Below, piece after piece: positions 1-62,419 of a DNA stretch of 64,000 bases; the stretch's first letter is position 1, and the number at the start of each line of letters is the position of its first letter. A model generated the notes under the pieces. It was not told where the DNA came from and searched no databases. It was given only the letters and a program-made list of their open reading frames with translations. Source of the stretch: Liolophura sinensis (taxonomy: Eukaryota > Mollusca > Polyplacophora > Chitonida > Chitonidae); NCBI RefSeq assembly GCF_032854445.1, contig NC_088301.1, positions 33,590,402 to 33,654,401 on the forward strand. The letters run 5' to 3'. The position numbers and the translations under genes are program-made.

Positions 1-1952
1 ATGGAAGGACATGTAGGAAGTTTTACTCAACTCCTTACTATTAAAGATGTGGAAATAACAAAAAGGGTGAAATTTATCTAATTTTATAGTGTATAAATGT
101 ATACATATACAGCAGTCACATATCAATATTTAGTTTATAAATGAGGGACAAAAGAAATATTGCTCTTTGTACAATTGTATATCAGCTAAACCTGATTATT
201 TTGCAGACCATATAATTTTTGGTCTGCACAATGCACTATGTCAGGAATTCAGTAATTTATAATATTTAATATGTACACACTGAATCAACAACGGATTATC
301 CCCCTCATATTATTGAACTCTACATATGTGCAAACCCTGATCTCAATACTGGCAGTACTTTTTAATATACCTCCCTTAACATTTTGTTTAACATTGCTTT
401 CTTTGTTATTGAACGACCCTTGGGTACGGCAAGCTAAAAAGGCTTGTCACATTATCTAGAAGACAATAACAATTAACCAGTTAATCTAACTTAATTACCA
501 GAAATCAATCTTAACTCCACACATTTAGGATAACAATTTGCTTTGCCATGTTAAAATTTTTTTTATTTCATACAGTTGTTGTCTAAGAGGTATGAAACCA
601 TATATAGAAACAGACAGAAGCAATAAAATAGCTTTTGGGCGATGATGATCACCTATTCACTTTGGAGGGAGACATAGCATTGTTCTAGGAGTGGTTTAGA
701 CAACACAGAAGATTTTGAAACAGGACTCATTTCCCTCATTTTAAATTGCCAGCGACATGTATGAACCTTACACATCCAAAACAATTGTTAACGGCAGAAA
801 TGCTGAATTACTGAACTTATCTAGATCAATATCTAAAAACTAAATTGCATACCAAAAGGCCAGAAGTTTTGGAGCCCACAGTGCCTATGGCTTGGCGACT
901 AGTAGGACCCTTATGCGGAGAAAATAGTTCACCCTGTAGACTCTGCGAAGAAGTGATTGTGACACATTTAGCACCATTGGCAGCATTAGTATGATGTACT
1001 AAGTGCAGCAGAAATACCTGTACAGCGGGGCTACAAATTTGCTATTACTACACAATGTGCAGTGTTATAATACTACATGAAGGATTATCCAAATTTTACT
1101 CAACTTCTTTTTTCCATAAGTAAATATTTGATTGATCAAAGATAAACTTGAAACAACCATGTCTTCAACAGAGTTCTTATTCAGCATAGGTACTGACTAA
1201 CTACCAATTTAAAGCATCTGAAACAGTTTTAAATTTTGCTCATGTCTCTAGATACTCTGCTGTCAGTGATCCCATTTTCAGCAGGGATATTGTTTAGCAA
1301 AAGGTTAGCATGTATATCAAATTAGAAAAAACTATCCGAAGCAGTTTGGCTTCCACACACAGATAATGCTGTCTCTGTCATATATGTAGCTGCCATGATC
1401 TTACATATATGTGATTAAAAGACATCGTTAACCTTTATTAACCTTTCATAACATTATTTATGGTATTTAGGCTTCACTGTGCAATATTCTACTTATAATT
1501 CATATTTTGACTATCTTGGTTAAGTTAAGCATTGTTTTTAGCTGTAGGCCATCACAGTCTTGTAAATATAGTTTGTTGTCATACATGATGACTTGTATAA
1601 TCTGTATAAAATTCTGAGGCCAGTTGCTTAAAAGTGTACAAAACGTTAAGCTAGGCTTAAATCTTAATACTGGTCTTGTTCTAATACAAAACCAATTGGA
1701 CTAGTCTGCACTAAAGTTAATACTTAAGCTTAACTTGTATTACATTTTTGAACAGCTGCACCCTGATCCATATAAAGTTTACTTTACTTGTACTATAAAG
1801 TATGCTGAGTTCTGATTGAACATCATAAAACAAAATATTTCTTTTCAAAGTTATGGCACATTAAAATGTAATAACAAAATGATATCTATAATGTGAAGTA
1901 ACACTTCATCAGCAAAGGATATCCTGACGTATAAATAATAAAGCTTACTAAC
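1..1952. other. RAVER 3' region or intron; no exon recognised
   Basis: AT-rich, no long open frame. I searched the minus strand for another LLPxP module and for a basic YLKRKR-like terminus as in vertebrates and found none. The RAVER terminal exon is therefore either very short and missed here, or lies before position 1. Confidence 0.5.
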
Positions 1953-2012
1953 ATGTGGGACAGGGTCTGGAAGTAATGCTTGCTGCTTCATGGAGTTCTC
2001 CATCTTGCTGGA
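1953..2012 (-). CDS. RAVER1/2: RAVER exon 16: LLPDP module, last exon found
   Basis: 60 bp, 20 codons, TTTTCAG acceptor. Reads KMENSMKQQALLPDPVPH. Two donors are possible: GTTAGT after 1953, which keeps phase 0 like the others, and a stronger GTAAGC after 1949, which would leave phase 1. The open frame also runs on to 1851 before a stop, so use as a terminal exon cannot be excluded. Confidence 0.68.
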
Positions 2013-5000
2013 CTGAAAAATAATGAAGCATTCTGAATTAGCTAAAAATATGATTGCTACCAAAATAAGATTTCAATAAGTATCATGTGTTCAATAACTG
2101 AATTTAAAAGCTACCTCACCTCCAAAGCCTTTGTGTTGAAAGAGAAGCGGTTAAATGATAAGGATTGTGACAGTCCTTAATTGGTTCCCTCAATCTACTG
2201 TGTCATGGGAATGTTGAAAATGTTAGGCAACCATTTTGCCATTACTTTACTTTACTACTTTATCTGTCTCTCCCTTTTCGAGAGACAGAAATGACATCTC
2301 TGTCCCTTAGGAACTTCCAAAGTTCACAACATTCAGATTCTCTATCTTCTTTATCACTCATCTGCTCTCAATTACTTCTTATGACACTTTTTTTCAGAGG
2401 CCCATGTTATAGTGAATGTGCCTAGCATTTTTGACAGGTCACATGATACAGTTGGACTTTTCCTACATTCAAATATATAAAAGAATAAATTTGAGACTCT
2501 AATATTACAGCATGATTTGCAAGTTTTGGGTATAACCCCCAGTCGACATTTAGCTTCATATAACACTATACTCTCAAATGTTTTTAGTGTCATTTCACCA
2601 CAAGCAAATTATACTGAAACTATCTATATACACAGTGTAAACCTATACTTTTATACGTTTGAATGGCGAGCAACCTAAAATTTCACCCATTTAGCCAGAA
2701 TCTTTCCAGAATCTAAGAGTTCTGTTTATCTTAGGAAGGTGTTTTGAGGTTAGCTTGGCAGGTAAACTGATATTCAACTGAGAAAATGTAAATTTCAGAA
2801 CCAAAAGTATTATTTGTACTGCATTTCCCAATACAAAATGCTGTTTTTTGAGAAAAATTTTGGGTGATTTAACATAATTGTTGAAACTTGCTCTTTAAAA
2901 ATGCAACAAATTAAAGAGGAATAACGTAAACTCTGGCTACTTTACCTGAAAACTATGAGAACCTATGCCCAGTGAGGAGCTGTTGTAGGAATTCGAATGG
3001 GACATTGGGTTTGGGAGCAATGGCTGTGGTTTGGTGACGTTATCAACTACATTTGTCTAAAAATCAATATAACCACAACAGTTTAGGTTTTACAGGCACA
3101 AAGTTCAAATTAGAAGTACATTGAATGGCAATAGAAGATTGTTCAAATTTGCATTAAAAAAGACAATGTTTTATTTCAAACTGTTTCTTTAATATTGCTA
3201 CTGATATTAGGACACACTTCTGGACATACACATACATGTAGTGTTTTGCATTAATTTCTTTCTCAAAATATTTCAAAATCTTTAATCAAGATAAAAGAAA
3301 TGTTTAGATTTACATAAAAAAATACATTTAGATACAGTAGACATCATACTATCTACACTTGACATTAAGCATGCATCTTCATGTATCTTTATAAATATTT
3401 ACCTTGTTACCATGGTGACCCAGTTGTTCAAAGAGATTACTGTATGGATCAGGTAACAAGGGCTGTTGTTTTGAGAAGTTATTGGAGTTCGTCTGTAACA
3501 AGATAAATACACACATTTATGCACTATATAGTAATGTTTAAAGTGGAAGACAATACCTGAATAATGTTTATGTCAACTTAAAGACTACTATTCAAGGTAT
3601 CTTAAACTGGCATTAAATATTTTTTTAGATTTTTTTTTCAACCCTGTAAAAGTCTAGTGAAACTTCGTCTTGATACAGTTTCAGCACGTCTCCCTTACTG
3701 ACAGCCAGGTGACGTCACCTTTACTCTAGCTCTCTAGCGCCTAGGATATTTTCCGTATTATAGTCAAAGCCGCAGCTTATAGCAAATAAAAGTTGTGGAC
3801 TTGGGCGATGAAGGTCCAAGTGATAAATAGCTTTCTCAGAAAAAGGACATACTGGCAAGATATTTCTTCTACTGCTTGAACTGTTGATACAGTAAGCCTG
3901 CTATATGATTTACACTTAATTTTAAGTAGCCTGCACATGCACGGCCTCAGGGTATTCCTGGTTCAAGTTGTAGCCTCCGGAGTGGTTGTGCTGGTGAGTT
4001 TGACCCCTATTAAATATTTACAAAATTACAATAGGATTGTTGTACAACTAGACTCATGCTCAATTTTGAAACAAATATAAATAAATCTAAGCGCCACTGA
4101 GGCTGATCTAGGCATTCAACTGTCACTGAGTTTTATGCTTCAGTTGTGTGAGAGTGGCTTCTAAGATGAAAGCGGTGCTGACCTAGATATCGCGGACATC
4201 AGAGAAAGCACTCTGGTTTGAACACAGCGTTTCGATAATTTTACTGTATTTTATATCAGAAACAGAAAAAAATCATCCCATCTATGCAAGAAAGACAGGC
4301 GAAAAATTTCAATTCCTCAATTCTCATATACTCAAGAAATGATATCATAAAATTTAATTAATTTTACGCATTGTCTGGTGAGATGCTGTCTTCTAATTCC
4401 CTTCAACCTTCAGCATCCCTAATGAATTTTTCAGTGACCTTGACATTTGTTATTTAGAAACTGATGAATAAACGGTAAAATGACCAACAAAAAATGTATT
4501 TGTATAATTTGAACATCGTGTCTTAGTAGGTCTAGTGTCTACTGAGGAAAAGAATGCGGTTTGGGCCAAGACAGTATGCTGCTGTCTGACATAATTTGTG
4601 ATACTGTCGTTGAACATTACACGGCTTGTAAATCAACTAATTTGATGTCTGTGGTGGACCATGAATGATACATAAATGATGCCACAACACTGTGTGAATT
4701 CGCCCCTCCGCTTTACCTAACTAAATCATTGCAAACGATCTCAAAATGATGTCTTATGCAGTAGTCCTGTGTTATCTTATATCACTTCATGGAGTGAATG
4801 CTACGTCACAGCTTAGGATGTGCAATCTTCTTGACATCATAAAGGGAACTTCATGCAGTAAATCTTTTGCTGTGCTTTTCATCAAATAAAGGGAGCGGTA
4901 TAGTATGATACTAGTACTTACTGTGTTACTGACTAAACTGCTGACATTTTGTGAACCAGATCCTTGAAAGATTGTGGGTAACAATGGAGGACGCTTTTGG

Positions 5001-8000
5001 ATACAGGTGACCAGTGCCTATATATAAAGTAAACAAAGTAAAGCCATACTTAACTTTAGGTAGGCCCAGCTAAGAACACAATCATGTACATCACTCAAAC
5101 ATTTTGTTTATTTAAAAATCCTACAACTTTACAAGCAAACAAGATTTCTGAACATCAAAATGCACTGGTCAGGATACAGTTTCAACAGGCATGTAAGCCT
5201 AGGTATAACAGCACCTCAAGTTTAAAATCTCTATGTGAAGCCGTTCTGTATATAGGGTGTTGGAACCATGAAAAACCCATACACTAGGATAACAAAAAGG
5301 AAAGTAGAATCCATTTTCAGTTCTGCTTGAAGCTTCTTGGCCACTAAAAGATAAATAACCTTGAAAGCCTTAAGTGAAGCTGATCTGTAGATATAATGTT
5401 AATGCCAAAACAGTAATGCACAGGCAGACAATGCCAACTACAACTTTTTCATTAAGGTAGTCTGAGAGGTAACTATTTCCTAAGATTATTTCATTATGCA
5501 ACCATATGCTTACATTTTTATTGACTTGTTCGCAGTTTTGTGACCTTAACATCTGGAATGGTGAAGGCAATAATGGAGGTGGTTTCTGGACAGTGCTGCT
5601 GGATGTCTATGAAAATAAGAAAACAACATGACATAAAATCTGATTATCTTGGCAACCTTTAAATAAAACCTTTTGTTAATGAATCAAATGCAAGTATGAT
5701 TCCATTTACTTATTTATTTATTTGATTGCTGTTTTACACAGCAAAGCATTTCACTTATATGACGGCAGCAAGCATTATGGTGGGAGGAAAGTGTACAGAA
5801 CCTGGCGAAACCCACAACCTTCCACAGGTTGCTGGCTAGACTTGCACTCACAGCATCCACATCTGTATAACACTTTATTTACCCAAAACTTGCTGACTGC
5901 TCTTTGTCTGCTGTGACGCTATACACAATTCACATGTCTGTCCACCACACATGAACTATTCTATATAAATCTTTTCAATGCATTCATATACATGTACACC
6001 ATGTCAAACTAACTGTGATGATATAAAGCTGCCCATTGCCACTGTAATACTTTATGTACCCATCGCATGTATCACATACTGGTAATACTCCAGCCAATGG
6101 ACATTATTTACGTGAAAGAACTGTTAATTTTACATTCTTGAACTGTGCTAAGCAGACAAATTTTGAGCCACAGAAAACACATTTACATTGTTAGTGACAA
6201 GACTGTGGATGTTTTGTGAGCCTGACATCTGGAATGGTGCTGGTAGCAATGGAGGTGGTTTCTGTACAGTACTGCTGGGTGTCTACAAAAGTGAAAAGAA
6301 GAAACTATGCAGATATTAACAGAACACCTCATGACAAATTCTGCACAAATCTTGATGCAACCCTTCTCAACTCAGCTGCATGCACATGGTCGTCACTCAA
6401 TCACAAAGAATCTAACCCAATATTAACACAAGAGGTTACTTTTCATACTCTGTCCACCATTACTATGAAATCCACCTGTTTGGTAGAATCCTAGACATGA
6501 GGTTATAGTACTTGAGTCTGCAGGGGGCTAAACACACTCTTTCTCTGATGCATGCAGGAAAAATTGTTTTGTGTTGTTATCACAAAAAACAAAAAACATT
6601 TGCTAGGTGGCGCTGTTATTCACAGTCCTCTTCGAAGGAGTTAAAAATGCAAATAAGAAAAGTTGTGGGTGGTGCACAGCTCTGGTTAAAGAGCACCGCC
6701 ATAGAAAACTTGGTTGTTCATGCAATTGCCTTTGTTCTGAGCCCAATTTTTTTTTCAGGGCATTATACACAAAAAAACATATCCCGGGATTTTGGCACTC
6801 ATGTACATGTTTTGTGAGTAGTTAATTGATGTTATGCAAACTGGATACCTGGAAGGGTGCTGGTAACAAGGGATGGGCTTTGTGGACTTTGCCACTTGCT
6901 GTCTGAAAACAAATAGAAGAAGAACACTTAACTTTCCACCCAAAGTATTCATATAATGGACATTTTGACACTTATGGTGAATGGAGGCTGGTCATACACG
7001 TATTGCAGTTCTAAATTCAGAAGTCTACTAATCCACTGATTCAACTTGTAAGATTTAAGATTGCATTTCCTCATTATACAAAATATCATATTAAATGTGG
7101 CTATAGTGAAATAAACTTAAGCGTTCAGCACATCTCAATAAGCAGACTGATCAAAGTTGATGCCCTGGGTACCTCATTTTCAACCCCCTTGAACTATGCA
7201 TAATTACACCATCACATGTTGTATCACAACTGAAAACTTCATAACAATTTATATAAACTATTTCAAAAAGTCTTACCTGTTGAGTGTAGTTGTTGATTTG
7301 ACAGGTCTTATATACAGGAGGATTACTAAGTCCTGGTTCAGGTAACAAGGCTGACTTTTGATGATGAAAGTTGTGGACGCCATTCCCCTGTTCACTGCCA
7401 ATCAAGTCTACACACTGATCATTCTGAGTGAAAGCAGGAACGTTATTATTCTGACAATGATCCACATTTGTGTTGTTGTTATTCTGTCCAATATGAAATG
7501 GTGGTGTGGAATTGCTGTAATTTCCAAGTAAACTGTTTCCGTTGGACACAGTACTGTTATTAGCATATGCCATGCTGTTGTTAGCATTGGTCGCTGGCAT
7601 AAAACCCTTACTTCCAGAATACTGCGAAGCCAGTGTTTGTAAATTACGCAGGAAGTTCTCTTTACAGTCTTCTGTTGTGTTAGTTCTTTCACCGATTAAT
7701 TGTGACTTTAACACTTGATGCATCTGTTTCTCCCAAGACCTATTTCCGTTATTTGCTTCATTGCTGCCAAAATAGTTTGAAGCATCACCCAGCAGACTGT
7801 TCCTTGGTTTTACCTGACTGTAAGCACCTGGTACTGATGGTGGAGCTGAAGGGCGATTATGCTGAATTGCTGCCACAATTTGCCCCAGATTTACTAAGGA
7901 GTTCATGTTTACATTCTTCAGGCTTCCTTCAGTAAAACTGCTCTGGTGTTCCCATGATGATGACAACTGATTCTCATCACAGCTGCCACCAGCTGACCTT

Positions 8001-11000
8001 TGACTTTCTGTGTTTCCATTTAGCTGTGACATGAGGTTCTGAACAAGAATTCTAGCCTGAGCTGTGAATGGATCACCAAGCAGAGATGGCTTTGTTCCAG
8101 ACATGCCCTTCTACAGCAGAAAACAAAATACTACTCACTGCAAAAGCTCAGAAGTCAAGCACAGTTCTGGGAAAGTGACGGTATTTAATTTCTAACAACT
8201 GCAGTTCTAAATATGACGAATACCTTGTTGAATTCAAAAGCTAACAGCCCTAGACATAATAAACGTACCAAGAAACTAAGTAGTTTCGCCATTTTAATTG
8301 GGTAACATTTGTCAGCCAAATGATTAAAAGCCACTAAAAAACAAGTCCATCTTTGTTATAATTCAGAGGTCAGAAACTATATTCGGTTATATGAAATTTG
8401 CTACGCAATATGCAAAATGTGTGTACTTAAAATTCAAATACGTTTCAAGCAAGAACTTGGGTGCCACATCACAGTAATCAATATTATAATGATCTTATCA
8501 TTTAAATTTACAAAAATTTGGAGCATTAATGAGTTAAACAGTTCAGTCTTTTCGCTGCTTAATTTGACAGTACAGGATATCAAGGCTGATGCATTAACAA
8601 TGATACCCACCTGTGTCATGGAAGGCTGGAGTAGAGTCAGCAAATGTAACTGTGATAAATACAGAAATTCATATTAATACAAAGTATGGATAAATGCCTA
8701 ATAAAAAAATAATTCCTTCAAGACTGTCATATCACATACTTTTTTTAAAGGCATTTTTTAACATACCCCTGGGAACAATCTTGAAATTAAAGGCAGTATA
8801 TTTGTAGTCAAGGAGAGGAGCAGCAGCTAAATTAGCCTGTATATTTAGGCCTACTTCTAATTTAACTTGACTTTCAGATGTTTCCCATTCCAAAACCTTT
8901 CTAGTTTTTAGAACAATCAGATATAAACTGTAACACCTACACTTTACATGCAGCGAAATAACATCTGTTTGAAGTACATATTGTGTGATGATGAATTGTA
9001 AAACTATGAATGCTCTGCTCAGATACTTTTCTAGTTTATGTGCATTCAGGGGAGGTAAATCATTGTCTCCCATTGAACATCACCCTTAAAGACAGCACCA
9101 CTGAAATTAGTTTCCCTTTCAGATTTCCCAAGACTTTGCAGGAAGCAGTTCTTTTTTATCAGCCATCAAATAAGACACCTTGGACATTACGTTTAAATGT
9201 TAAGGACTTTGTCATTAAAACATGTACTTAGCCATATTTATGTTTCTGATGTACATAAAAAACCACTGGCTTAAGACAGTATAATGGTTCTAAATTCTAA
9301 AGTAGGACTAAATTAAGTTGGAAAGATTATCTTGCAAATAGTACTTACAGCATCTGAGGTACTGGGGTTTGCCTGAATGGGCAAGTCTGCTTGACTGTGT
9401 AGTTGTAGAGCTAACATAGTAGCAAGTCCCAGCTGCAGATTGGGGTTCATCAGGGGATTCATCATAGAAGGGGCAGGGCCTAATAAACCTGTACACACAC
9501 ACAAAAACCATCTGTAGTTGGGTGTGTAATACCTGCCAATACCATTAACTAGTAACTCTGTAACAGTTTGTACTGAACTTTAACACGAATGTGAAGATTT
9601 TGAAATGAGGACAATGCATATGACTGCTACAGTTTGCGAAGATAGCTTTACATTCATGGGTCTACAATGGGTGTTCTGCAGCATCATGGACAGAATCATC
9701 TTTTTTCTTTCTTGAAGAAAATAATAACAACATTGATTTTAACTTTTTAAGCATGGGCGCATTTTTCTTTTTAACTTTCACGAGCTATTACATGACTGTT
9801 TGGCTTTTTTACTTACCCTGTCTGTTTGTCCCGTGGATCTGGTGAGTGTAGCCAGTCTGAAGCTCCTTCAGAGCTCTCTGCAGCTTTGGCATCACTGAAA
9901 ACAGTAAACAAGAATTTGATTGACAAAGGCATCAGAAATAGAGTTAATCAAAATTCTGAATTGATTGTTAATTTTTAGTAAATATTAAAGTTTCACTCAA
10001 TTTAAATCTGATCTACATCTACACAAAAGGTAACAATGAAGTTCTAACAATTTCTAAATTTCATGACAATAAATCTGCTCTAATAAGAGCGACTCAATTC
10101 TACCTATCAAACACCATGTCATATTATGGGCTGCAACAAACCAGGTGATGCAACTTCTACCAAGTAAAATTCTCTTAAAAGATCTCTTAAAAGTGATTCG
10201 CAGGTACCTTAATTCCTCAACCTTTTCACATATGAAAGAGCATTTTTCAGTGCAATTTATGCACATTTTTAATTTGATTTTGGAAATAAAACTTCATTGG
10301 CTGGATTGTCCACTTTCAGGACTTCACAAAAAGTATAATTTTATCAGTCTACACAGTATAACGCCTTCAGATTATGAATAAACACCTTGCAAACAAGTGA
10401 AAAGGTTGAAGAATTACAATAGTGATAATACTCTTCCAGCTTTCACTCATGTGGGACAACAGAATATATCAGTATCAATGCAAGCCATTGTTTAAACGCT
10501 CAGTAGTTTGCATATGATCTGATTTTAAATTGCATTGCAGAGAATAAACTGGGTATTTATGGAGAAAATCCACATCTGCTAATTAAATAAAATTTGACAA
10601 CAATAGACGAAATTACTACCTTTTAGCAGACTCATATAGTATGATTCTCAGGTTTAAAAACAATACACTTTTAGCAATTTTATTGCCACTTTTGAACAAT
10701 AACAAATGCACAGACGAGGCTGATATTTTGTGCAGGGTAATTGTTCCTACTATTCTAAAGTAATAGCCCTTGATTGGAATAGATTTGTGCTGACTGATGC
10801 CAAAAGTCTCCAGTATAGTCTCTTTAATAGTCTTGTTTGAATCAAACAAGATATATACAGCGCAAAAGTTTGTAAAGGGAAATGGTACGATAACAATGAA
10901 GTTCAGATAAGAGTATAATTACAAGATAAAGTAAGATAATGCTATACAATGAAGACACATTTCCAGCCCAAATTCTCAAAAGATTTTAGTACAACGTGAA

Positions 11001-14000
11001 ATTTGCAGCACATGAAGTGCATGCACCAAGAAAATCCATCACAAATCTATCCCTTATGAACCTTTCATAAATAGATGCATTTCTGTTAAAACAGGTATAT
11101 ATGTATACAGAATATCTTTGTTATAAAAGAGCAATTCAACTTTACACTTACAACGTGGTTGTCTGAATGTGAGGGATTTCATCAACGGGGAATTAACAAG
11201 CGTCTCATTCAGAAAAACAGGGTTTGGTAGCAGACCGGACTTGTGCGTACTGCCTGTAACTCCCTTTGTTGTGGAAGCCTCCTGAATGATACAAAAATGA
11301 TTCCTCAAAGTTAATCATAAATCCTTTGCATTTTCAGCAGAGCAAGGACCATCTAAATCAATAAACTAAAATTTTACTCCAGGCATGAGGATATGTTTAA
11401 ATGCCTGAAATTCAATTAAAAATGTAGAGTATCCTAAATCTCAACCTTTTCGCATATGAATAAGCAACTTTCAGTTCAATTTATGCTCATTTTTAGCTTT
11501 ATTTTGGAGACAAAACAACATTGGTTGGATTGGCCAGTTTCAGGGCTTCACAAAAGGTAAATTTTATCAGTCAACACAGACTAATGTGTTCAGAATATGC
11601 TTGAATAAACACCTTGCAAACATGTGAAAAGGTTGAAGAAATATAGTATATATGGCTCTACCTAAATACACACACTTCAGAAGACTGGGATTGTTTTCTA
11701 TTTCCTATCTTGCAAGGAGAGAGTGAAATCAAACTGAAAATTCACATACTTCTCACCATGTCCACAGTAATTTCAAACACATTTATTTCTTTGACTGTTG
11801 TTTAGTGCCAACCTTATACTCTTCGCTTATACCATGGCAGATTACTACTGTGGAGGAATATCCGGAGAAAATCAACAGTGAACTTATCCACATGTGGCAT
11901 ATATGCATGCACACTACATTGGTGGAAGACAATTGATTGCACGAATGGCCACACTAGCATATTCAATCGCTTAGTGTCCCCAAGGGCCCACAAGTGGTGA
12001 GAGTGGCGGAATCTATAAACTTCCTGTTCAAGGCTGGTTTTCACTGCCATCTCGTGAATTTCAAGCATAGAATATAACAATATAGATGTCTCTGAAATTA
12101 GATATATTAGTGGTTCGAAAAATGTTGATGAACTGGGAAACTCATTATAATGGTTGAAAGCTGAATATTCCTAAGGCCTGCAAGATGTTGCCACTGTTGG
12201 ATGTTAATAGTGATGAGTGACAATGTTCACTATAAGCCCAATCAACATTTCAGGAGTCTCCAAATTTCATACAGATTTAGGCAAGACAAGGTGGGGGCTC
12301 TCATACTACCGGGGCTAAGAGACGTGATTTTACCGTATTTTTTCTATAATTTCGTGCGATCTCGAACATCCCCGATCCAACACCCAGGTATTTAACTTTC
12401 TGAGAACGCCGCCTATGGGAGTGGCTGATAGGTGTTTACACAAACTAAGCAGATCATAGCTCTCTAACTCAACCTATCACCTGTATAGCTGTGCTGCCCA
12501 TCACACAGTTCTCAAGTTCTCATATGAGTAGGCGCAAGGCTTTGATGTTGAGTTACGGTATGTTAGGTGCTTATGGTGTTGAGCCGACAGGTAGATAAAT
12601 TTTCAGTTTAGGAACAACCTTGAAATCACTTTTGACCTGTGTTAGTTTGTGACAGCCCACACTTTGTCTTGCTTGTATCTGCATGAGCTCGCTAGACTCC
12701 TGAAATGCTAATTGAGCTTATTGCCGTGTTATCCAACTGCAGTAGATTATAAGGGGTTTAAAGATTCATTATCAACCTTAGTTCTGCAGAAGAAACCAGT
12801 TAAATATTCCTCGTTTAACCACTCCGATAATTCTTCACTATTTTAAGACAAAAATTATTCTTAAAAAAATTATAAACACATACTAACCTTTCGAGAAATG
12901 AAGCGATTATAAATATCAATGGCAGTCTTTCCTACAAGACAATAGGATATGGAAATAGGTGATCCCTTCACTCTTGATCCATCAAGATGGTGACGAGTTT
13001 GTGAGGCCACATCGTGGTCGGTATACTCAACAATAGCTATTCCTAATGATGTTTCATTGTCTTTGACAAGAATCTGTGAAGATAAAGAATTAGACAAGTC
13101 TCTGACTAAACAGTTGAACTGTCTAAAGCAACAAGTACTATCGATGTCATTTATTTGAACCCAGGCCACTTTGTTCTGCTTCAAAGATTTGCTGGGCGGT
13201 GTGCCAAGCCATTTTCTTAGTCACTGATAAACCTAACCCTTCCCACAGTGACAAATAAACCTGGATATGGCATACAACAGAGAAAATGAAATCCTGCTGA
13301 AACATATCTTAACTGTGTACTGAAAGCCTATTACATTGTAGAGCGTCCGCTTCGGGACCGGTAGATCCAGGATCAATCCTTGGTCGAGTCACACCTAAGA
13401 CTTTAAAAGAGGAAGTTGTAACTTCCTCGCTTGGCGTTCAGCATGAAGGGGATAGTGCAACGACTGGTTGACCCGTATCAGTATAATGGCTCGGGCGGGG
13501 CAGCTTACTTGCCTTCGGTAAGTCGTCTCAGTGATGCAGCACTAAATAAAAGAGCGGTGGAAATCCGTCCTGCAACAAGGAGGCACATTACACGTGCATG
13601 CACCCTAATGATTCCTTCGTCGTCATATGACTGAAAAATTGTTGAGTACGACGTTAAACCCCAAGCACTCACTCACTCACCCTATTACATTGAGGAGGGA
13701 GATATTGACCATGACATTGTATTTTTATGCTAAGTCACTAGAAAAAGCGATGAGAACTTACTCGACAGTACGCTGGATTGGCAAACAAGCTAAAAATATC
13801 TCGCAGATGACAATCATCTCGAAAATCCTCAGGAAGATTTTCTACCAACAGGCAACGTGAATTCAGCTGATTGTAGTTTGCTTGATTTCCGCAGATAAAA
13901 TCACACTGAATTGTGGACTGGTCAACAGTTTTCCAGTCAAGTTCCTCTCTGGCAGGTATGGACTTCTCTCGATTCACACAATATTCAACAAACCCATAGC

Positions 14001-17000
14001 CTTTGCTCTCACCTACAACATTGCCATTTAGTCATTATAACCTTCTTTAAGTATATTTAAACCAACTTGGATACTGCAGATGCTTTTTTATTTGCGTGGT
14101 ACTAACATTCGCGGATATAATTTCTGCCGTTGAATATAAAACCCATGTAAGTAATTTAATAATGTAGCATGTGTCACAGTTATAAATTCATTAACAAGCA
14201 CTACAGTATAACACTTTTTCAAACACTTTAATTAGAAATACATAATTCGAATGTATTCAGGCTTTCACAAATCCAGCTTAATTGATTGTCAGTTAATCTT
14301 GATATTTTAAGGAAGCTTAGCTCTGTCTAAGTATTGCCACATTACGACGTCGTGTTTGTTGTTGATTTATTGATGCGGTTAAAGACATACAAATCGATAA
14401 TTTGTATTGGGCGTGTGTACGTGATACGATATACATATGATGAGAGAGGGTGTTTTTTATCGACCGTAATTGATTTCCAGTTGGATCACCTTTCCAATGT
14501 GTCCGATACATCGCTTTGGGGTTTCCGCACTTCAAACTTCCTTTTCATAATGACGATTTCTAAGAAATTTACTCAAATCTGTCACAGTTCACTTAAAGTT
14601 TCACTCACACTGCTGTTGCATGAGAATTAAACAGTGGGATTTATTTACATAACATCTAATCCTTTGTCGTCTCCCAGAGTAAGTGACATGAATATTTGCT
14701 CACACAGCAGGTAAGGGCTTCGTCTTATAAAGATTAAAAGCTTAGGAGGATTAACTTCCTTTGTCTGATCAAGTTACTGTAATGTATGGAATTTTTGTCA
14801 CATCTTACAGGTACAAACAAGTTTAAATGATAACATGTTACTTGAATGCTGGAGACGTTTTATTACTTGACATTTCTATCTTGAAAAGTGATTTCCGTTT
14901 ATCAGTTGTCCAAAAATTCTGTTAAGATCTGTGAAAGTTGATTCCTGCAAGTGTCTTCTTACCAAATCTGCGAAAGTTTATGACCGCAAATAAAAAGGCA
15001 TTTACAGTATTTGACTCAATTTAAATAGAATACTTAATTATTAGGAATGCTGTCCAGTTGAAAAAATTAGATTTTAGAAGAAAGAATGTTTGAAAGAATG
15101 AATTCTCTTAAGAATGTCATTTATAAGATATGAAAATAGCTGTTAATGCGCTAATCTAATTAAAAGAAGAACTGAATCCAACTTGACTAATTGGAATCTG
15201 CAATTAAATGGAACTTTCAAATTTTCTATAATTCTACTATTTTCTATTATCAATATCTGCACATCAAGTTTTAGTTAAATCTGATCAGTAGTTCTGCACA
15301 AGCATGCTGAAACATGATGGCACAGCACACGGTGGCAAAATAAGGTCTTGCATAAGTTTTTATAAAAGCTAACATCTTACATATGTCACCAACAGCTTTT
15401 GTCTAATATGAAAAATTGAGCTGAGACAGAATAAAGAAGACAGAAATAAATACAATAAATTGCAATAGTTCAAACAAAAACAATAAGCTTCCAGTTTTCA
15501 GACTGTAAATCTAACTACATGGACTAGATCACTGGCATAACAAGAAAGGTGACAGTCATATTAGTAATGTGCAAAGGAACAACAGAACTACAACTTCCAA
15601 CAAGCCAACTTCAATGAGTGCCAAGCTGGTACTGGTACCGACATTACCTATAAACTCATCTCTCATCAAGAAGGACTTTTCAACTGGGCCATATGTGGAT
15701 ACAAGAGCTTCAAATTTACTCTCCGTGAAATCACTAGGTAAGTGAGCCACACAAAGAAGTCGATCACTTGGATAGAAAGATACAGACACTTCTGTGTTGA
15801 GCAGATGCTTCTTATCCAATGCTGAGGCAATTTCTATGGCTTTTTCACCCTCTTGTAACGTGACAATGGCTGAAACAATAGACACTGATTTGTGTTCAAG
15901 GGAAAATGACTCTCGTGTCATGTGAGAAAATTATCTCTGAATGGGCCGTGGTACATGTATACATGTAAATGTTTTTAGTACAACCATACCATTCAATGCA
16001 ATTCTTGTGGTTGAAATAAATCTGAATTAAACATGTATACCATCAACTCAAAAACATAATTCTTTTAAAAATTAATGCAAAATTACATGCTATTACTTGA
16101 ACAACAACGGTCCTAAGATGTGGTATACTTACCATGCCTAGATTTCTTACTAATGGTGATGTTGCTCACTGGATGATCACCCATAAATTCCTTCACCTCC
16201 TGAATTATAAAAAAAACACATTTTATTGAAAACTGCATGAATCACTCCTGTTTTGCTGGAACTATCGATTCATAAAATCGGTTAAAAATCTTCTGTCTTC
16301 ACTAGTTATTTGGACATGCACAGAACAGCCAGTTGAGAGCAGCTTTGCACATGTTCTGTTTCATCTTTGAAATGTTATGAGCGTATCCAGGGAAGATGGC
16401 AGAAATGATCTGGGAAGGTATACCTTGGAAGTCTTCATAGTAGTAATACACCTATACAAAACCAAGTCAGCCAAGAAAGGTGTTTTGAGGTTTTGCATGG
16501 AACATGGGATGATATTGTACAGGAAAATTCTTTCCTTTAGTTTCAACACCAAGAAAAATATTTTGTCACATTTATTTGCCTCAAAAAATGTACTTTTTGC
16601 GGGCGGAATTTTGGGTCACTTAGGGTAGTTGGTGTCACTTTCAGAATACACAAAACATCCTGGCTACAGATTGCAACATGAGCAATTGTTATCAGTAAAG
16701 AAACAGTAATCTATTGACCAGTCGTTCAGGCTAATTTCAAGCTATCCAGAAATACATATGTCAAGATTTGATTAAAACATTCTCTTGGTTTGGGAACCAT
16801 TCCTTAATGCAAAAAATATACCTGAAAGTAAATTAAATTGTAGCATGTCATATATTTCTGGACAACCTGAAATATGCATTATTCTACGCTCCTTTTGGAT
16901 CTGTATGTTTTGTGGATTGACATAGGGTAGTTTTTGTGTAATAGCAGAAGTCCATTACCTTAAGGTATGCAACTTCCCTCTAGCTAGTCTATAACATATT

Positions 17001-18002
17001 ATGTGATGCTTCTGCGCATAAATGTATTATTTGTCTCCCTACTGCGCAGCAAATGTTTGAGAAACGGCTGATGCATGGTGGGAAAAAAAGTAGATTACTG
17101 CTTAATTCTATTATGCCTTGGACTTTCCTACCATATGTATATCGAACTAAGACAACAGCAATAATGTCTTGTGACGTGATGTTACAGGATGTGTACAGAA
17201 TAAAAAAAAAATGACTTCCCTTCAGCATGCCCTAGCAATTAAGTTTGTTTTTGTATGTTTCACAGTTTAAAATTTATGTTACACTTTAAGGGGGAAAGTC
17301 TTCTTGGAAAACAACTCCAAAGTGTGCTCAAATGTGGATATTTAGCACTATTTCTGACTGTTGATTGCGCAGGTTATTGGCTTATCAGCCAAAAGATTTG
17401 CATTCAGAAAAGCATGTCACCGGTTATATGTCTACCGACCGAATGAATATCAAAAATATAGAATATGAAGAGAGTACATTTATTGAGTTAAATTACCTCA
17501 CTCCACAACTAGTGAGAATCAGTGGTTATTCTGACATTCCCACAGTAGCAAAATCCATAACATACACTCTCACTGACACTGAATGAAAGTCCATAGTTTG
17601 CCTTTGCTTTGATAAAAGGTGATTGCTTTCTTAGTTAAGGTGATTTCTTGTAGCGCAAGCTGCATAAAGTCGAACAAAAAGCATAGCGAAGAGAATCTGA
17701 TGATCTTTCAATCACCATGTGAGCTGATTCTGACACCCCACTCGATTGACAGTAGTTACCTCATAAGAACAAGGAGGGACATTTCTCACAACGATTTTCC
17801 TGTCTTTGTAAAATTCTTTCCGTGAACGCTGTAGCAGTGTTGTTAGTTCAGAGGTGGCGCTCTCAGGAGATAAAATCGTCTTTTCATTTAGATGATGTTG
17901 TCTATCGTGGTCGTTTTTACTTGCCACTGACACAAAACTTTGTGAATTCTGTGTTTTTCCGCTGTCCATCTGTTGTTGCCCAATGTCCATGGTGGCTGCC
18001 AT
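1953..18002 (-). CDS. RAVER1/2: RAVER1/2 orthologue (PTB-binding RRM protein), whole gene, 3' end missing
   Basis: Split gene, coding exons in transcript order: 18002-17760, 16199-16133, 15869-15648, 14012-13762, 13073-12888, 11281-11152, 9894-9817, 9488-9349, 8110-7277, 6902-6849, 6282-6187, 5606-5514, 5017-4922, 3492-3403, 3056-2946, 2012-1953. All joins keep frame across GT/AG sites and give about 917 residues without a stop. Domains: RRM1 about 68-140, RRM2 about 142-230 (RNP1 KGYGFVEY), RRM3 about 235-310, then a disordered region with a GLLGPAP motif, three SLLG motifs and nine LLP-type modules. Vertebrate RAVER proteins share the three RRMs, the GLLPEP sequence after RRM3 and [SG][IL]LGxxP docking motifs. 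They are PTB corepressors of splicing that also bind vinculin and alpha-actinin and shuttle between nucleus and cytoplasm. The start is ATG at 18002, or 17990, which sits in a perfect GCCACCATGG context. The terminal exon was not found, so the C-terminus is unknown. Identity is firm; one-to-one orthology to RAVER1 or RAVER2 is not decided. Confidence 0.92.
2946..3056 (-). CDS. RAVER1/2: RAVER exon 15: LLPNP module
   Basis: 111 bp, 37 codons, phase 0 to 0, TTTTAG acceptor, GTAAAG donor. Reads TNVVDNVTKPQPLLPNPM, then a Ser/Gly-rich tail with SYNSSSLGIGSHS. The tail faintly recalls the LLPSPEP-Ser/Gly/Tyr tail at the C-terminus of vertebrate RAVER. Confidence 0.82.
3403..3492 (-). CDS. RAVER1/2: RAVER exon 14: LLPDP module
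   Basis: 90 bp, 30 codons, phase 0 to 0, TTACAG acceptor, GTAAAT donor. Reads TNSNNFSKQQPLLPDPYS, followed by NLFEQLGHHGNK. More diverged than exons 10-13, so probably an older copy. Confidence 0.82.
4922..5017 (-). CDS. RAVER1/2: RAVER exon 13: LLPTI module
   Basis: 96 bp, 32 codons, phase 0 to 0, TATAG acceptor, GTAAGT donor. Reads ALVTCIQKRPPLLPTIFQ, then GSGSQNVSSLVSNT. Same plan as exons 11 and 12, but the second proline of LLPxP is replaced by isoleucine. Confidence 0.82.
5514..5606 (-). CDS. RAVER1/2: RAVER exon 12: LLPSP module
   Basis: 93 bp, 31 codons, phase 0 to 0, TTCATAG acceptor, GTAAGC donor. Reads TSSSTVQKPPPLLPSPFQ, then a tail with RSQN and NKN. Close sister of exon 11. 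Confidence 0.85.
5706..5863 (-). mobile_element. SINE family A, 5'-truncated copy
   Basis: Starts on the plus strand with a TTATTTATTTGATTG-type tail complement and runs back to the Box B neighbourhood (CACTCACAGC). It matches the middle and tail of the full copy at 36508, with clear divergence. It lies in the RAVER intron between exons 11 and 12, so it landed after, or independently of, the exon duplication. Confidence 0.75.
6187..6282 (-). CDS. RAVER1/2: RAVER exon 11: LLPAP module
   Basis: 96 bp, 32 codons, phase 0 to 0, TTTGTAG acceptor, GTAAAT donor. Reads TPSSTVQKPPPLLPAPFQ and then a Ser/Asn-rich tail with SGSQN. It is strikingly similar in DNA to exon 12, with most differences in single bases, which shows a fairly recent tandem duplication. 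Confidence 0.85.
6849..6902 (-). CDS. RAVER1/2: RAVER exon 10: shortened LLPAP module
   Basis: 54 bp, 18 codons, phase 0, TTTTCAG acceptor, GTATCC donor right after the PLLPAPFQ codons. The sister exons continue with SGSQN and about ten more codons. Here the continuation runs QVSSLHNIN and meets TAA about nine codons later, and a CTCACAAAACAT remnant of the missing half can be seen at about 6806-6817. Either the exon is spliced short, or it acts as an alternative end. Confidence 0.72.
7277..8110 (-). CDS. RAVER1/2: RAVER exon 9: long disordered exon with SLLG motifs and an LLPEP module
   Basis: 834 bp, 278 codons, phase 0 to phase 0, CTGTAG acceptor and GTAAGA donor. Rich in Asn, Ser and Gln, with no folded domain visible. 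Contains PSLLGDPF, NSLLGDAS and NSLLGNYS, each close to the PTB-docking motif but lacking its last proline. One basic helical patch (SWEKQMHQVLKSQLIGE) is present. The exon ends with KSALLPEPGLSNPP and a polar tail, the same layout as the small exons that follow, so its 3' part may be the seed from which they were copied. Confidence 0.9.
8111..9348. other. RAVER intron 8
   Basis: About 1.2 kb, AT-rich, no exon or repeat recognised. The other RAVER introns likewise hold only the repeats listed separately. The largest, intron 1 (16200-17759) and intron 3 (14013-15647), showed no further recognisable feature. Confidence 0.5.
9349..9488 (-). CDS. RAVER1/2: RAVER exon 8: GLLGPAP PTB-docking-type motif
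   Basis: 140 bp, phase 1 in, phase 0 out. Opens with GLLGPAP, an exact match to the [SG][IL]LGxxP motif known to dock RAVER1 on PTB RRM2. It continues with a Met/Pro/Leu-rich block (NPLMNPNLQLGLATMLALQL) that resembles the Leu-rich segment of vertebrate RAVER (LSTALLQLALQ). Confidence 0.88.
9817..9894 (-). CDS. RAVER1/2: RAVER exon 7: linker
   Basis: A 78-bp exon, phase 1 to phase 1, TTTTCAG acceptor and GTAAGT donor. Encodes LMPKLQRALKELQTGYTHQ then IHGTNRQG. It joins exon 6 to the GLLGPAP exon in frame. Predicted helix followed by a polar loop. Confidence 0.85.
10213..10413. mobile_element. MITE-like element, copy 1
   Basis: 201 bp with inverted ends: TTCCTCAACCTTTTCAC at the left, and the complement of TTCTTCAACCTTTTCAC at the right (16 of 17 match). 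No coding capacity. It lies in the RAVER intron between exons 6 and 7. A second copy is at 11440. No clear target-site duplication seen. Confidence 0.75.
11152..11281 (-). CDS. RAVER1/2: RAVER exon 6: first LLPxP motif after RRM3
   Basis: 130 bp, phase 0 in, phase 1 out (GTAAGT donor). Encodes a linker with SGLLPNPVFLNETLVNSP. It lines up with the GKGLLPEPNILQLLNN segment of vertebrate RAVER. This is the founding-type copy of the LLPxP motif that later exons repeat. Confidence 0.88.
11440..11640. mobile_element. MITE-like element, copy 2
   Basis: 201 bp, same orientation and same length as the copy at 10213, recognisably similar over its whole length, with CTCAACCTTTTCGCATATG at the left and CATGTGAAAAGGTTGAAGAA at the right. 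It lies in the RAVER intron between exons 5 and 6. Probably a non-autonomous DNA transposon; superfamily not determined. Confidence 0.75.
12888..13073 (-). CDS. RAVER1/2: RAVER exon 5: end of RRM3
   Basis: 186 bp, phase 0 to phase 0, CTTCACAG acceptor and GTTAGT donor. Encodes ILVKDNETSLGIAIVEYTD (RRM3 RNP1-like, GIAIVEY in place of GFAVLEY) and ends with a basic YNRFISRK tail just after the third RRM. Confidence 0.9.
13339..13680 (+). mobile_element. SINE family B with target-site duplication
   Basis: Flanked by a perfect 12-bp direct repeat CCTATTACATTG (13327-13338 and 13681-13692). The body opens inside a tRNA-like head (TAGAGCGTCCGCTTCGGG, Box-B-like GGATCAATCC) and ends with CGACGTTAAACCCCAAGCAC and a (CACT)n tail. 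Slightly truncated at the 5' end, since Box A is missing. Lies in the RAVER intron between exons 4 and 5. Confidence 0.88.
13762..14012 (-). CDS. RAVER1/2: RAVER exon 4: end of RRM2 and start of RRM3
   Basis: 251 bp, enters at phase 1 and leaves at phase 0 (GTAAGT donor). Encodes ESKGYGFVEYC, a canonical RNP1, then the RRM2 end containing a DWKTVD stretch, then RCLLVENLPEDFRDD, the first strand and helix of RRM3, up to NPAYCR. The order and spacing match vertebrate RAVER. Confidence 0.92.
15648..15869 (-). CDS. RAVER1/2: RAVER exon 3: end of RRM1 and start of RRM2
   Basis: 222 bp, phase 1 to phase 1, TTTCAG acceptor and GTAATG donor. Encodes AIVTLQEGEKAIE (RRM1 RNP1 side), then VSVSFYPSDRLLCVAHLP and a Phe-Glu-Ala-Leu helix leading to YGPVEKSFLM. 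The block SVxFxPxDxLLCVAxLP is closely shared with vertebrate RAVER (SVQLQPTDALLCVANLP). This is the clearest family signature in the gene. Confidence 0.92.
16133..16199 (-). CDS. RAVER1/2: RAVER exon 2: middle of RRM1
   Basis: A 67-bp exon between TTCAG and a GTAAGT donor. It enters at phase 0 (EVKEFMGDHPV...) and leaves at phase 1. It fills the RRM1 helix 1 and beta 2 gap between exons 1 and 3 at the place expected from vertebrate RAVER, although the residues are diverged. Found from splice signals and frame rather than from strong similarity. Confidence 0.78.
17760..18002 (-). CDS. RAVER1/2: RAVER exon 1: N-terminus and start of RRM1
   Basis: Encodes 81 residues from MAATMDIGQQQ to VVRNVPPCSYE and ends phase 0 at a GTAACT donor. 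The first RRM beta strand (RNP2-like KIVVRNVP) lies at the end, as in vertebrate RAVER (RKILIRGLP-type). The open frame continues upstream to 18068 but only through a TTG codon, so the true start is ATG 18002 or ATG 17990. The latter has the optimal Kozak context. The N-terminus is polar and Ser/Gln-rich, with no signal peptide. Confidence 0.88.
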
Positions 18003-18400
18003 TTTGTAGTTTGAATCAAAGCTCCCAGGATGCACTGCGATCACGACGTGGTTGGCCTTGTGGTACAATACATCATGAGAATAAAGTTAACTTTCTACGA
18101 TTAACCTCGTGGAATTAGCATGCTCTTGTCACGCTCCGGCACATCTAATATGTATTAAGCAAGCCATTCATCCATAAAATCCGAATAAACAATCTGTAAT
18201 ACTTGATTTGTTTAAAACAACTTGGCCTGGAATGACCTAATTTTCTAACTCTGGTGTCCCCATTTATACCAGTTCCTCTCCAGGATTCGGGAATGAAGAT
18301 CTCTTAGCAGCTGAAAAATGTAGATGTGCACAATTCATTGATTGTCTCCAATAGCGGAGAGTGTTTCGCGCACTTGCTGAAGAATTAGGTACCCATGATG
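18003..18400. promoter_or_regulatory. Shared 5' region of RAVER (minus) and TESK (plus)
   Basis: Lies between the divergent 5' ends. Just upstream of and overlapping the RAVER start is AAAATGGCAGCC, a YY1-like start-region element in form. No TATA box was identified for either gene. CpG dinucleotides are more frequent here and down to 18,560 than in surrounding DNA. Transcription starts cannot be placed from sequence alone. Confidence 0.4.
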
Positions 18401-18586
18401 CTGTGTGTACAAGCAGAGTAGAGAGGTAAATAGCGAGTAGGTAAGTTGTAAATGTCAGTACATAGCCGGGGCTGTGAAACCGCAGAGAAGGAAGTTAGCT
18501 CTTATTTAAACACGGAAGAAGAAAGATGCTCCAGGAAGACGTCGGCTGTGTTTAAAGCAGGCTAGAGTATCGCCAGTCATGTGCAT
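18401..18586 (+). other. Possible TESK 5' non-coding exon
   Basis: A consensus GTAAGT donor begins at 18587, and the next good acceptor in this direction is the pyrimidine tract and CAG just before 19744, which precedes the first TESK coding exon. I infer one untranslated leader exon ending at 18586 and a leader intron of about 1.15 kb. The 5' border is arbitrary. Confidence 0.4.
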
Positions 18587-19784
18587 GTAAGTAAAGCTCC
18601 ACAGAAAATGGCTGCTACTTAAGACAAAAGTGTACTTTTTAGACACAGTATTACCAGTTTTCCGCTGTTTTCGCAGGCAAGTGAAGATGTTTATACGTTA
18701 GAGCAACCCCATCGCTTTTGGTTCGGCCCGGCACTTCCTAACCTCATGCTTAACATGCTGATTGTTTAACCTCGTCCAGTAATGTTAGAGATACTTTTAA
18801 GGCTATACATATGCACATTTATCATATACACCGTGCATATTTGTTTAGCCCCAGTATGCACTCGTTAAACATGATCAGTCATTAATCACACGTACAAAGT
18901 GGTTTGTTCTGGTGAATGTAGAGTGTGACGTTTGCGATATTCAGTTGTATTGGTAACGGTAGTATAAATGTTCCAGCATCAGAATGTTAACCAATGATTC
19001 CTTATTACACTTAATAAAAGTTTTCTGAAAAATGATATTTTTTTTTAAATAGGATTAGCTAGTTCAATGAATATGTAAGGCTGAATCATGGATCACCACA
19101 AGCTAATATTCTGTTGACATTGTTATCTGGAATATGCATGCAGCTGTTTGTAGTAGGTGGTCAGGTAAATGGTCTTTGTGCTGCAGATTTGTGCGTGCAT
19201 GTAATGAGATAAAAACAAAGGAACATACATGGCATGCATAAAGTCACTTTGTGTTTACACAAAGTAAGAAAATGCAAATTGACATTCAGACAAAAGGAGA
19301 ATTAAAGACAGTGCTTCATGTTGTTTGTGTTGTATTCTCATTGAGATATAATTGTCTACAAATGTGATAAGAGTTAACAAGTGGTAGTTATAATCTGCAG
19401 TGTATAATTGTTAGTTTCATAGATATATTTAGCCTAGTGAAAGCCTTGTTCAAGTCTGACTTTATGCTCTCATTGTTTGCCAGAAGACTGTTAGCACTTT
19501 TTAAAACATATTTGTGTTAGTTTAGTTTGAAGATTATGTAGGGTACTGGACTCTGACTGGTGGTGAGATGCAGTTTGTTTTGTTTGGGCTCTGATGTGCA
19601 GTTTGTACTTGAAAACGGGTCCGGTGAAATGAACGAACCTGTGTAAATTGAAACCTTTCTTGTTTTGATAGATTGAGAGATACATTCTCTTTTCTGTATT
19701 GATGCTATAAATTTACGGTTTCACTGGCATTTTTTTTTTTCAGCAGTGCCTGCATATAGTGATTGCAGTTACCTTTATGTGAAC

Positions 19785-20330
19785 ATGACAATGCGATCTC
19801 AGCCGTGTGAAAATTGTCCTCCAAGACACCGCAAAAACCTAGGTGTCACTCGAAGCAGGAGCGACGGGCTAAGCTTACTGTCTGTTTCTAATGCTGCTGC
19901 AAGCACACCGATTCAAAAAAAAGCAAAAGCGCAGAATTTGTGTAACCACGTTAAACGTGATCAGAGACAGATGACCGCACAACCACCCAAGAGCTCGTCA
20001 AAAACACACCACATGAATGACACTAGCAAGGTTTACAAAACATCCAAGGCCCAGTCAGGAGGTGAGAGCTCCATGGACCTTACCCCAAGCCCTGTGCTGG
20101 TATTGAATCCTGGGAGGCCAAGAGCCTTCACAGCACAGCCTCAACTCAATGGGGAAACTCGTGAAGTGGAAGGACCTAAGGAAGAGGTCACAAGTAGCAA
20201 AGATGAAGGACAGATTCATGGGTCCTCAAGGTCATGCCAAGCTCTGAAATATGCAGTCTCAGCTTTAACACGATTGGACGATTTTGTGTGTGAAAGTTTG
20301 GGTGCTGGCTTTTTTTCGCAGGTGTATAAG
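19785..20330 (+). CDS. TESK1/2: TESK exon 1: N-terminal extension and Gly loop
   Basis: 546 bp. The reading frame is open from 19746, but that codon is GTG, so the first ATG is 19785 (MTMRSQPC), with a second at 19791. An acceptor (T-tract plus CAG) lies just upstream. Residues 1-150 are Ser/Lys-rich and unlike known domains. Then come [20 protein letters not shown] and [11 protein letters not shown], closely shared with TESK1. Ends phase 0 at GTAAGA. Confidence 0.92.
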
Positions 20331-62047: not shown

Positions 62048-62419
62048 GAGCAGAGTCCCTCAAGAAAAGGCTGTTTGTCCATTGTGAATTTTGTACTTGG
62101 AATTAGAAACGGGGAAAGCTACGAAAATATATAATTTACGAAGTTTCGCAAAAGTGTAATGACCCTGACCCCATCCACGTGATCTCAAATGCCTTATTTT
62201 AATTTACTTAAAATAATTAAATTACCATATGGCAGGGTTAGCGAGATGGAAGAATTTGCAATGAACTTGCCATCATCCCAAAACGCGTTTATACGGCTGT
62301 ACAAATAGGATCCCGTTGCTTCCGGAACCTTGGCAGAAAATGATCAGATCAAATATTATTACTGAGATGCCGCAATAACCATTCTCAGTTATGAGCTATG
62401 TTTTGGTGTGATGTGATTT

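Follow-up and report, generated by a model that had tools for sequence, protein, structure and literature searches.

Vertebrate RAVER proteins carry LLPxP sequences after the third RRM and near the C-terminus, and none of them is known to be encoded with seven LLPxP cassette exons. Here we describe the RAVER gene of the chiton Liolophura sinensis, which lies on the minus strand of a 64,000-nucleotide stretch of genomic DNA (NC_088301.1, positions 33,590,402 to 33,654,401; this whole stretch is referred to as the window) and is predicted to contain a tandem array of seven such exons, part of which arose, by its DNA similarity, through exon duplication. An initial annotation of the window, which was made from the sequence alone, likewise describes scattered LLPxP sequences in vertebrate RAVER.

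Two described peptide motifs provide the closest comparison for the array. The PRI motif, with the consensus [S/G][I/L]LGxxP and thus a Gly directly after the Leu pair, is bound by PTB (PMC3420021), and the affinity of PTB for Raver1 is about 100 uM as cited in PMC5146272. The second motif is the SHI motif of SETD2. In the crystal structure presented in PMC8575775, NAGKVLLPTP is the only part of the SETD2 peptide that touches RRM2 of hnRNP L, with the Leu pair filling two hydrophobic pockets and Pro-Thr-Pro encircling Tyr257 and Tyr204. The same paper reports a dissociation constant (KD) of 11.57 uM for hnRNP L RRM2 and a 13-mer, SNPNAGKVLLPTP, that ends in LLPTP, a loss of binding to hnRNP L with either L2188A or L2189A, and an undetectable affinity of the longer SETD2 peptide for PTB RRM2; its authors describe LLPTP as the motif seemingly preferred by hnRNP L.

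Chiton RAVER resembles vertebrate Raver1 and Raver2 in having three N-terminal RRMs (RRM1 is partly resolved, with its middle left out), a long tail and PRI motif(s), whereas the seven added LLPxP exons, located downstream of the PRI region and before the C-terminus, set it apart from the vertebrate proteins, which are not known to have them. Given the LLPxP sites of vertebrate RAVER, the chiton array would expand something old. The predicted exons are given below in window positions and with the exon numbers of the initial annotation; the end given for exon 1 is provisional, and one or more small RRM1 exons would lie downstream of it.

17751 to 18002, minus strand: exon 1, coding from the first ATG, start of RRM1 (sequence reading)
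15648 to 15869, minus strand: exon with the end of RRM1 and the start of RRM2 (bounds from splice consensus)
13762 to 14012, minus strand: exon with the end of RRM2 and the start of RRM3 (bounds from splice consensus)
12888 to 13073, minus strand: exon with the end of RRM3 (sequence reading)
11152 to 11281, minus strand: exon 6, core SGLLPNP at 11239-11219 (sequence reading)
9817 to 9894, minus strand: exon 7 (bounds from splice consensus)
9349 to 9488, minus strand: exon 8, with GLLGPAP, a strict PRI motif by the consensus of PMC3420021; first codon split with exon 7
7277 to 8110, minus strand: exon 9, with PRI-like SLLGDPF, SLLGDAS and SLLGNYS, core SALLPEP at 7354-7334 (sequence reading)
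6849 to 6902, minus strand: exon 10, TASGKVHKAHPLLPAPFQ, tail apparently removed by an internal donor (sequence reading and alignment)
6187 to 6282, minus strand: exon 11, TPSSTVQKPPPLLPAPFQMSGSQNIHSLVTNN (sequence reading and alignment)
5514 to 5606, minus strand: exon 12, TSSSTVQKPPPLLPSPFQMLRSQNCEQVNKN (sequence reading and alignment)
4922 to 5017, minus strand: exon 13, ALVTCIQKRPPLLPTIFQGSGSQNVSSLVSNT (sequence reading and alignment)
3403 to 3492, minus strand: exon 14, TNSNNFSKQQPLLPDPYSNLFEQLGHHGNK (sequence reading)
2946 to 3056, minus strand: exon 15, TNVVDNVTKPQPLLPNPMSHSNSYNSSSLGIGSHSFQ (sequence reading)
1953 to 2012, minus strand: exon 16, SSKMENSMKQQALLPDPVPH, donor gttagt (sequence reading)
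-367 to -546, just beyond the window, minus strand: terminal exon with a tenth core, SSLLPAPE (sequence reading)

The array of LLPxP modules predicted in the initial annotation, comprising the end of exon 9 and exons 10-16, with splice sites on both sides, phase 0 and a conserved core position, proved to be well founded. Exons 10 to 16 are 54, 96, 93, 96, 90, 111 and 60 nt long and, together with exon 9, all eight are multiples of 3 in phase 0, with AG upstream and GT downstream. In exons 10-14 the LLP lies at codon 12 from the acceptor, in exons 15 and 16 at codon 13, and the seven array exons share the pattern K-x-x-[P/A]-L-L-P-x-[P/I], in which Lys stands at -4 from the first Leu in every exon and the residue directly preceding the Leu pair is Pro in six exons and Ala in one. 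A ninth core that had been placed in exon 6 is indeed present and, with the tenth core of the terminal exon, the gene contains ten LLPxP-type cores (seven in exons 10-16 and one each in exon 6, the terminal exon and the end of exon 9); LLP is found in all ten and the second Pro in nine, exon 13 having Ile instead (LLPTI). Outside the array, Lys is found at -3 in exons 6 and 9, and the nearest basic residue in the terminal exon is Arg at -5. Starting with the core of exon 9, successive cores are separated by 35, 18, 32, 31, 32, 31, 37 and 20 residues. The Ser/Asn-rich tails noted initially are present in general, with a loose fit for exon 14.

The joined protein of exons 9-17 (537 aa) contains LLP.P 8 times, compared to a mean of 0.03 and a maximum of 2 among 20,000 shuffles. 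A six-frame translation of the window, with 79,695 residues in open stretches of at least 20, contained LLP.P 9 times, of which 8 were inside RAVER exons; the remaining one, an isolated PLLPEPW at 62316 on the plus strand, lies in an apparently non-coding frame and is probably due to chance. Phase-0 open AG-to-GT intervals with LLPx[P/I] at codon 10-14 were all located in RAVER (11/11 in 74 kb, both strands), these 11 matches covering 10 cores, with exons 6 and 9 matched from internal AGs and exon 16 counted twice. Five of the seven array acceptors rank in the top 1.3% of 1,284 AG sites, while the exon 15 acceptor is weak, in the top 10.6% of the same AG sites, as are, among 1,268 GT sites, the donors of exon 10 (top 9.4%) and exon 16 (top 8.0%); sites were scored over approximately 20 kb of the minus strand with approximate weights. 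Searches of the open-licence literature that combined RAVER with exon duplication, molluscs, evolution or PTB, as well as searches for LLPxP and for tandem exons with linear motifs, yielded no description of this array among the matches listed.

The assignment of this gene to RAVER, already made in the initial annotation, is supported by similarity searches. The best solved-structure matches of the joined RRM exons were three Raver-1 chains (E 2e-34), with PABP next (E 1e-15), and a single RRM exon used as genome query gave 1 match (3 candidates scored); the query for the Raver-1, genome, Pfam, genome_contigs and viral_contigs searches was led by seven residues, KSVSIVS, which are suggested to be mostly intronic. 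A Pfam search named RRMs alone, an NCBIfam search named zero families, and exons 6-8 taken together with the end of RRM3 matched solved structures of unrelated proteins alone, and these weakly. The C-terminal tail holds LLPxPE and GQHSQG; the strings of the putative vertebrate counterpart appeared in no open-licence paper among the matches listed (best 40 of 219).

Exon duplication, proposed initially for the whole array, is supported by DNA comparison for exons 10-13, whereas exons 14-16 appear to be tied to the array by protein motif, phase and position only. On their nucleotide similarity, exons 10-13 are tandem exon duplicates that kept the same phase and their splice sites: identity is 81% over 94 nt for exons 11 and 12 including the acceptor (blastn E 4e-20), 69% over 91 nt for exons 10 and 11 (E 6e-5) and 70% over 73 nt for exons 11 and 13 (E 3e-3). 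Local alignment with 250-nt flanks, controlled by 30 single-base shuffles for each pair, also placed the pair 10/12 above control, so that four of the six pairs among exons 10-13 exceed shuffles, and the pairs 10/13 and 12/13 do not. No pair involving exon 14, 15 or 16 scored above its shuffled control except 14/15, whose high score comes from the common short intron being aligned to itself. Similarity starts at most 22 nt upstream of the exon and stops at most 10 nt beyond the exon 11 donor. The match between exons 10 and 11 extends 52 nt into the intron (window 6848-6797), opposite the coding tail and donor of exon 11, and a genome search with the exon 11 module gave the same intron match, which contains one TAA; exon 10 was therefore probably once longer and was cut by a donor inside the module.

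The genome search with the exon 11 module (32 aa) scored 4 candidates, which are exons 10-13; exons 14-16 were missed, so distant copies escape such a search. A hidden Markov model (HMM) built from the eight module exons recovered those eight above threshold and found no extra decayed modules in introns (six frames, 74 kb). A recent minisatellite was rejected as the source of the array, with no tandem repeat found within window positions 1-20000. Scans of the prokaryote (genome_contigs) and viral_contigs collections gave no confirmed relative, as expected for such collections. Synonymous divergence (Nei-Gojobori dS) is 0.81 for exons 11 and 12, and the other five tested pairs give at least 1.4 or are saturated; judged by these values, the array is not young and is predicted to occur at least in chitons generally. 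When the 28 pairs among the 8 modules were pooled, the ratio of nonsynonymous to synonymous differences (pN/pS, with pS of 0.70-0.77) was 0.63 for the nine codons before LLP, 0.89 for the twelve codons after it and 0.07 for LLP itself, the last value being partly circular, as the modules were found and aligned by LLP and the pairs are non-independent. The conserved Lys, which was not used for the alignment, is a cleaner sign of constraint than LLP.

The chiton genome was also found to encode the candidate partner. With an hnRNP-L/PTB model, nine matches the size of single exons were obtained, grouped in two clusters; none passed the cut-off for the whole protein, which is to be expected when exons are matched separately. 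The cluster on contig C6 represents hnRNP L, with its joined RRM2 exons matching PDB 7EVR chain A at E 1.1e-35, and the cluster on contig C7 (25.17-25.20 Mb) represents PTB. From residue 209 onward, chiton hnRNP L RRM2 is identical to the human domain at 47 of 61 positions, and it keeps nine of the eleven residues compared (Y204, V210, I214, L251, N252, D255, I256, Y257 and L263), differing at 249 and 250; by this alignment the RRM2 groove is kept. Chiton PTB RRM2 keeps the tyrosines of GQ-IY and VYP, taken as Tyr247 and Tyr193 with numbering inferred by alignment. A chiton SETD2 gene was found on contig C4 via its SRI domain, which was identified by model, and its SET-like and WW-like stretches were identified by eye; between these two stretches, RTLLPTP occurs in an exon starting RTLLPTPPKMSKEK.

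Two further observations concern the hnRNP L locus on contig C6. An RRM2 intron at approximately 16627495-16627856 on the minus strand has the look of a U12-type AT-AC intron by the consensus of this class: the upstream exon ends in GTCGA and is followed by atatcctttt, the intron ends in ccttaaccacattgcac and is followed by ATTTGAC, and joining across it restores MVEFDS. At 16623916-16624134 on the minus strand, an open stretch contains KNQPLLADPRYPG, which is slightly similar to the RAVER cores, with Ala replacing the first Pro.

Like the SHI motif on RRM2 of hnRNP L and hnRNP LL (PDB 7EVR and 7EVS), the RAVER cores are LLPxP sequences outside folded domains with a basic residue upstream; unlike SETD2, which has one core, KVLLPTP, with Lys at -2, RAVER is a different protein with approximately 10 cores and Lys at -4 in the array. 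On this reading the array would act like SHI, a putative likeness in which core and partner are present and the basic residue at -2 is missing. By analogy, we regard it as an even call that chiton RAVER, a co-regulator of PTB, serves through its exon-duplicated array as a multivalent ligand of hnRNP L, a proposal for which we infer mRNA use, disorder, binding, avidity, bridging and splicing control. Each module would be a peptide, probably unstructured, built around the core K-x-x-P-L-L-P-x-P. As with KVLLPTP of SETD2, its Leu pair could occupy the two hydrophobic pockets that hnRNP L RRM2 has on its helical face (the non-RNA side), and its Pro-x-Pro could wrap around the groove tyrosines. A single site would be weak, and approximately 10 cores, mostly 31-37 residues apart, would add avidity; given the PTB-Raver1 affinity quoted above, it is plausible that both sides need multivalency. 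The separate PRI motifs of RAVER would hold PTB simultaneously, and one RAVER molecule might thus gather several hnRNP L molecules and PTB on a pre-mRNA. Skipping of array exons would alter the number of sites and leave the frame intact, because every array exon is in phase 0 at both ends, and this symmetry, together with the weak exon 15 acceptor and the weak donors of exons 10 and 16, would make skipping possible.

Several points weigh against this proposal. Full SETD2 affinity depends on upstream residues, and none of the ten RAVER cores has Lys or Arg at -2 as SETD2 does, although a requirement of this residue for binding is putative. Residue 250 of chiton hnRNP L is Ala where the human protein has Ser, so this contact is not reproduced. 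The chiton SETD2 exon with RTLLPTP showed no SETD2 similarity in a search of solved structures that included human SETD2 chains, and its match to SHI therefore rests on place and motif. By a crude charge-hydropathy index, the array is borderline on the marginally folded side (0.435 vs 0.426), and disorder is hence assumed. The cores of exon 6 and the last exon, which fall below the threshold of the module HMM (E 1.4 and E 1.7, respectively), may be unrelated by descent to the array, and the low pN/pS of LLP carries the circularity mentioned above. Binding between RAVER and hnRNP L was not reported in the open-licence literature among the matches listed, and a sequence as short as LLPxP could serve another domain.

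The initial annotation had suggested PTB or another partner for the modules; of these, PTB has become the less supported one and the other partner now has a candidate in hnRNP L. Other candidates for a partner of multivalent motifs would be an RBM7/SF3B4-type dorsal-pocket RRM or a WW, SH3 or MYND domain, a reading that we consider unlikely. P-x-L-x-P is a MYND-type pattern, and exons 11-13 also fit it; a MYND-type motif was rejected, as it fits these three exons alone and fails in four of the seven array exons (10, 14, 15 and 16). Ligands of the dorsal RRM face do form a wider class, as described in PMC5146272, but the common core of the modules is the hnRNP L core published in PMC8575775.

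That the modules represent additional variant PRI motifs for PTB RRM2 is improbable. PMC3420021 and PMC8575775 place the Leu pair of both the PRI and the SETD2 peptides on the dorsal face of RRM2, the cores share with the PRI motifs of Raver1 and Matrin3 a Leu pair and the predicted character of a dorsal-face ligand of a PTB/hnRNP L-family RRM2, and the groove tyrosines of chiton PTB are retained. In contrast to PRI, which has Gly at position 4, all ten cores continue the Leu pair with Pro and none with Gly. In addition, the affinity of the SETD2 LLPTP peptide for PTB RRM2 was undetectable, and RAVER already has a match to the strict motif [SG][IL]LGxxP in its tail (GLLGPAP of exon 8) as well as the three SLLG variants of exon 9, which lack Pro at position 7. 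Because the PRI Gly is absent from every core and PRI sites are present elsewhere in RAVER (exons 8-9), PTB is, by sequence, less likely than hnRNP L to be the partner of the LLPxP cores. An array that is mostly spacer, grown by neutral exon duplication, is given an equally low probability: Ser, Pro, Asn and Gln make up 47% of the array and the tails diverge nearly freely (pN/pS 0.89), but Lys and LLP are identical in all seven exons despite near-saturated synonymous sites in most pairs. It is very improbable that some or all of exons 10-16 are a gene-model artefact absent from mRNA, as the weak donors of exons 10 and 16 and weak acceptor of exon 15 would allow, considering that seven open exons share strand, phase 0 and an LLP at codon 12-13, that five of the seven acceptors rank as given above and that the similarity of the copies stops near the splice sites.

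If chiton RAVER is such a multivalent hnRNP L ligand, a short linear motif would have been multiplied by exon duplication into a graded number of hnRNP handles on a splicing co-regulator, and a role would be suggested for the LLPxP sites of human RAVER. More tentatively, and as a possibility that we consider less likely than not, RAVER could be a two-sided adaptor in all animals that have the gene, with PRI directed to PTB and LLPxP to hnRNP L; chitons or a larger mollusc group would then have raised the number of hnRNP L sites from a few to approximately 10 by exon duplication and may tune it by skipping. Such an adaptor would mean that vertebrate RAVER1 links PTB and hnRNP L, repressors with known cooperation, and a protein that binds both RRM2 domains via two related, distinct motifs would represent a direct physical link between them. 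According to PMC3796306, hnRNP L represses exon P3A of CHRNA1 and uses its proline-rich region to bind PTB.

A dispersed repeat lies in the intron that separates exon 15 from exon 16 (window positions approximately 2195-2483); with 40 of 1,750 first-look candidates scored, it was found at no fewer than 39 further places with 73-80% identity.

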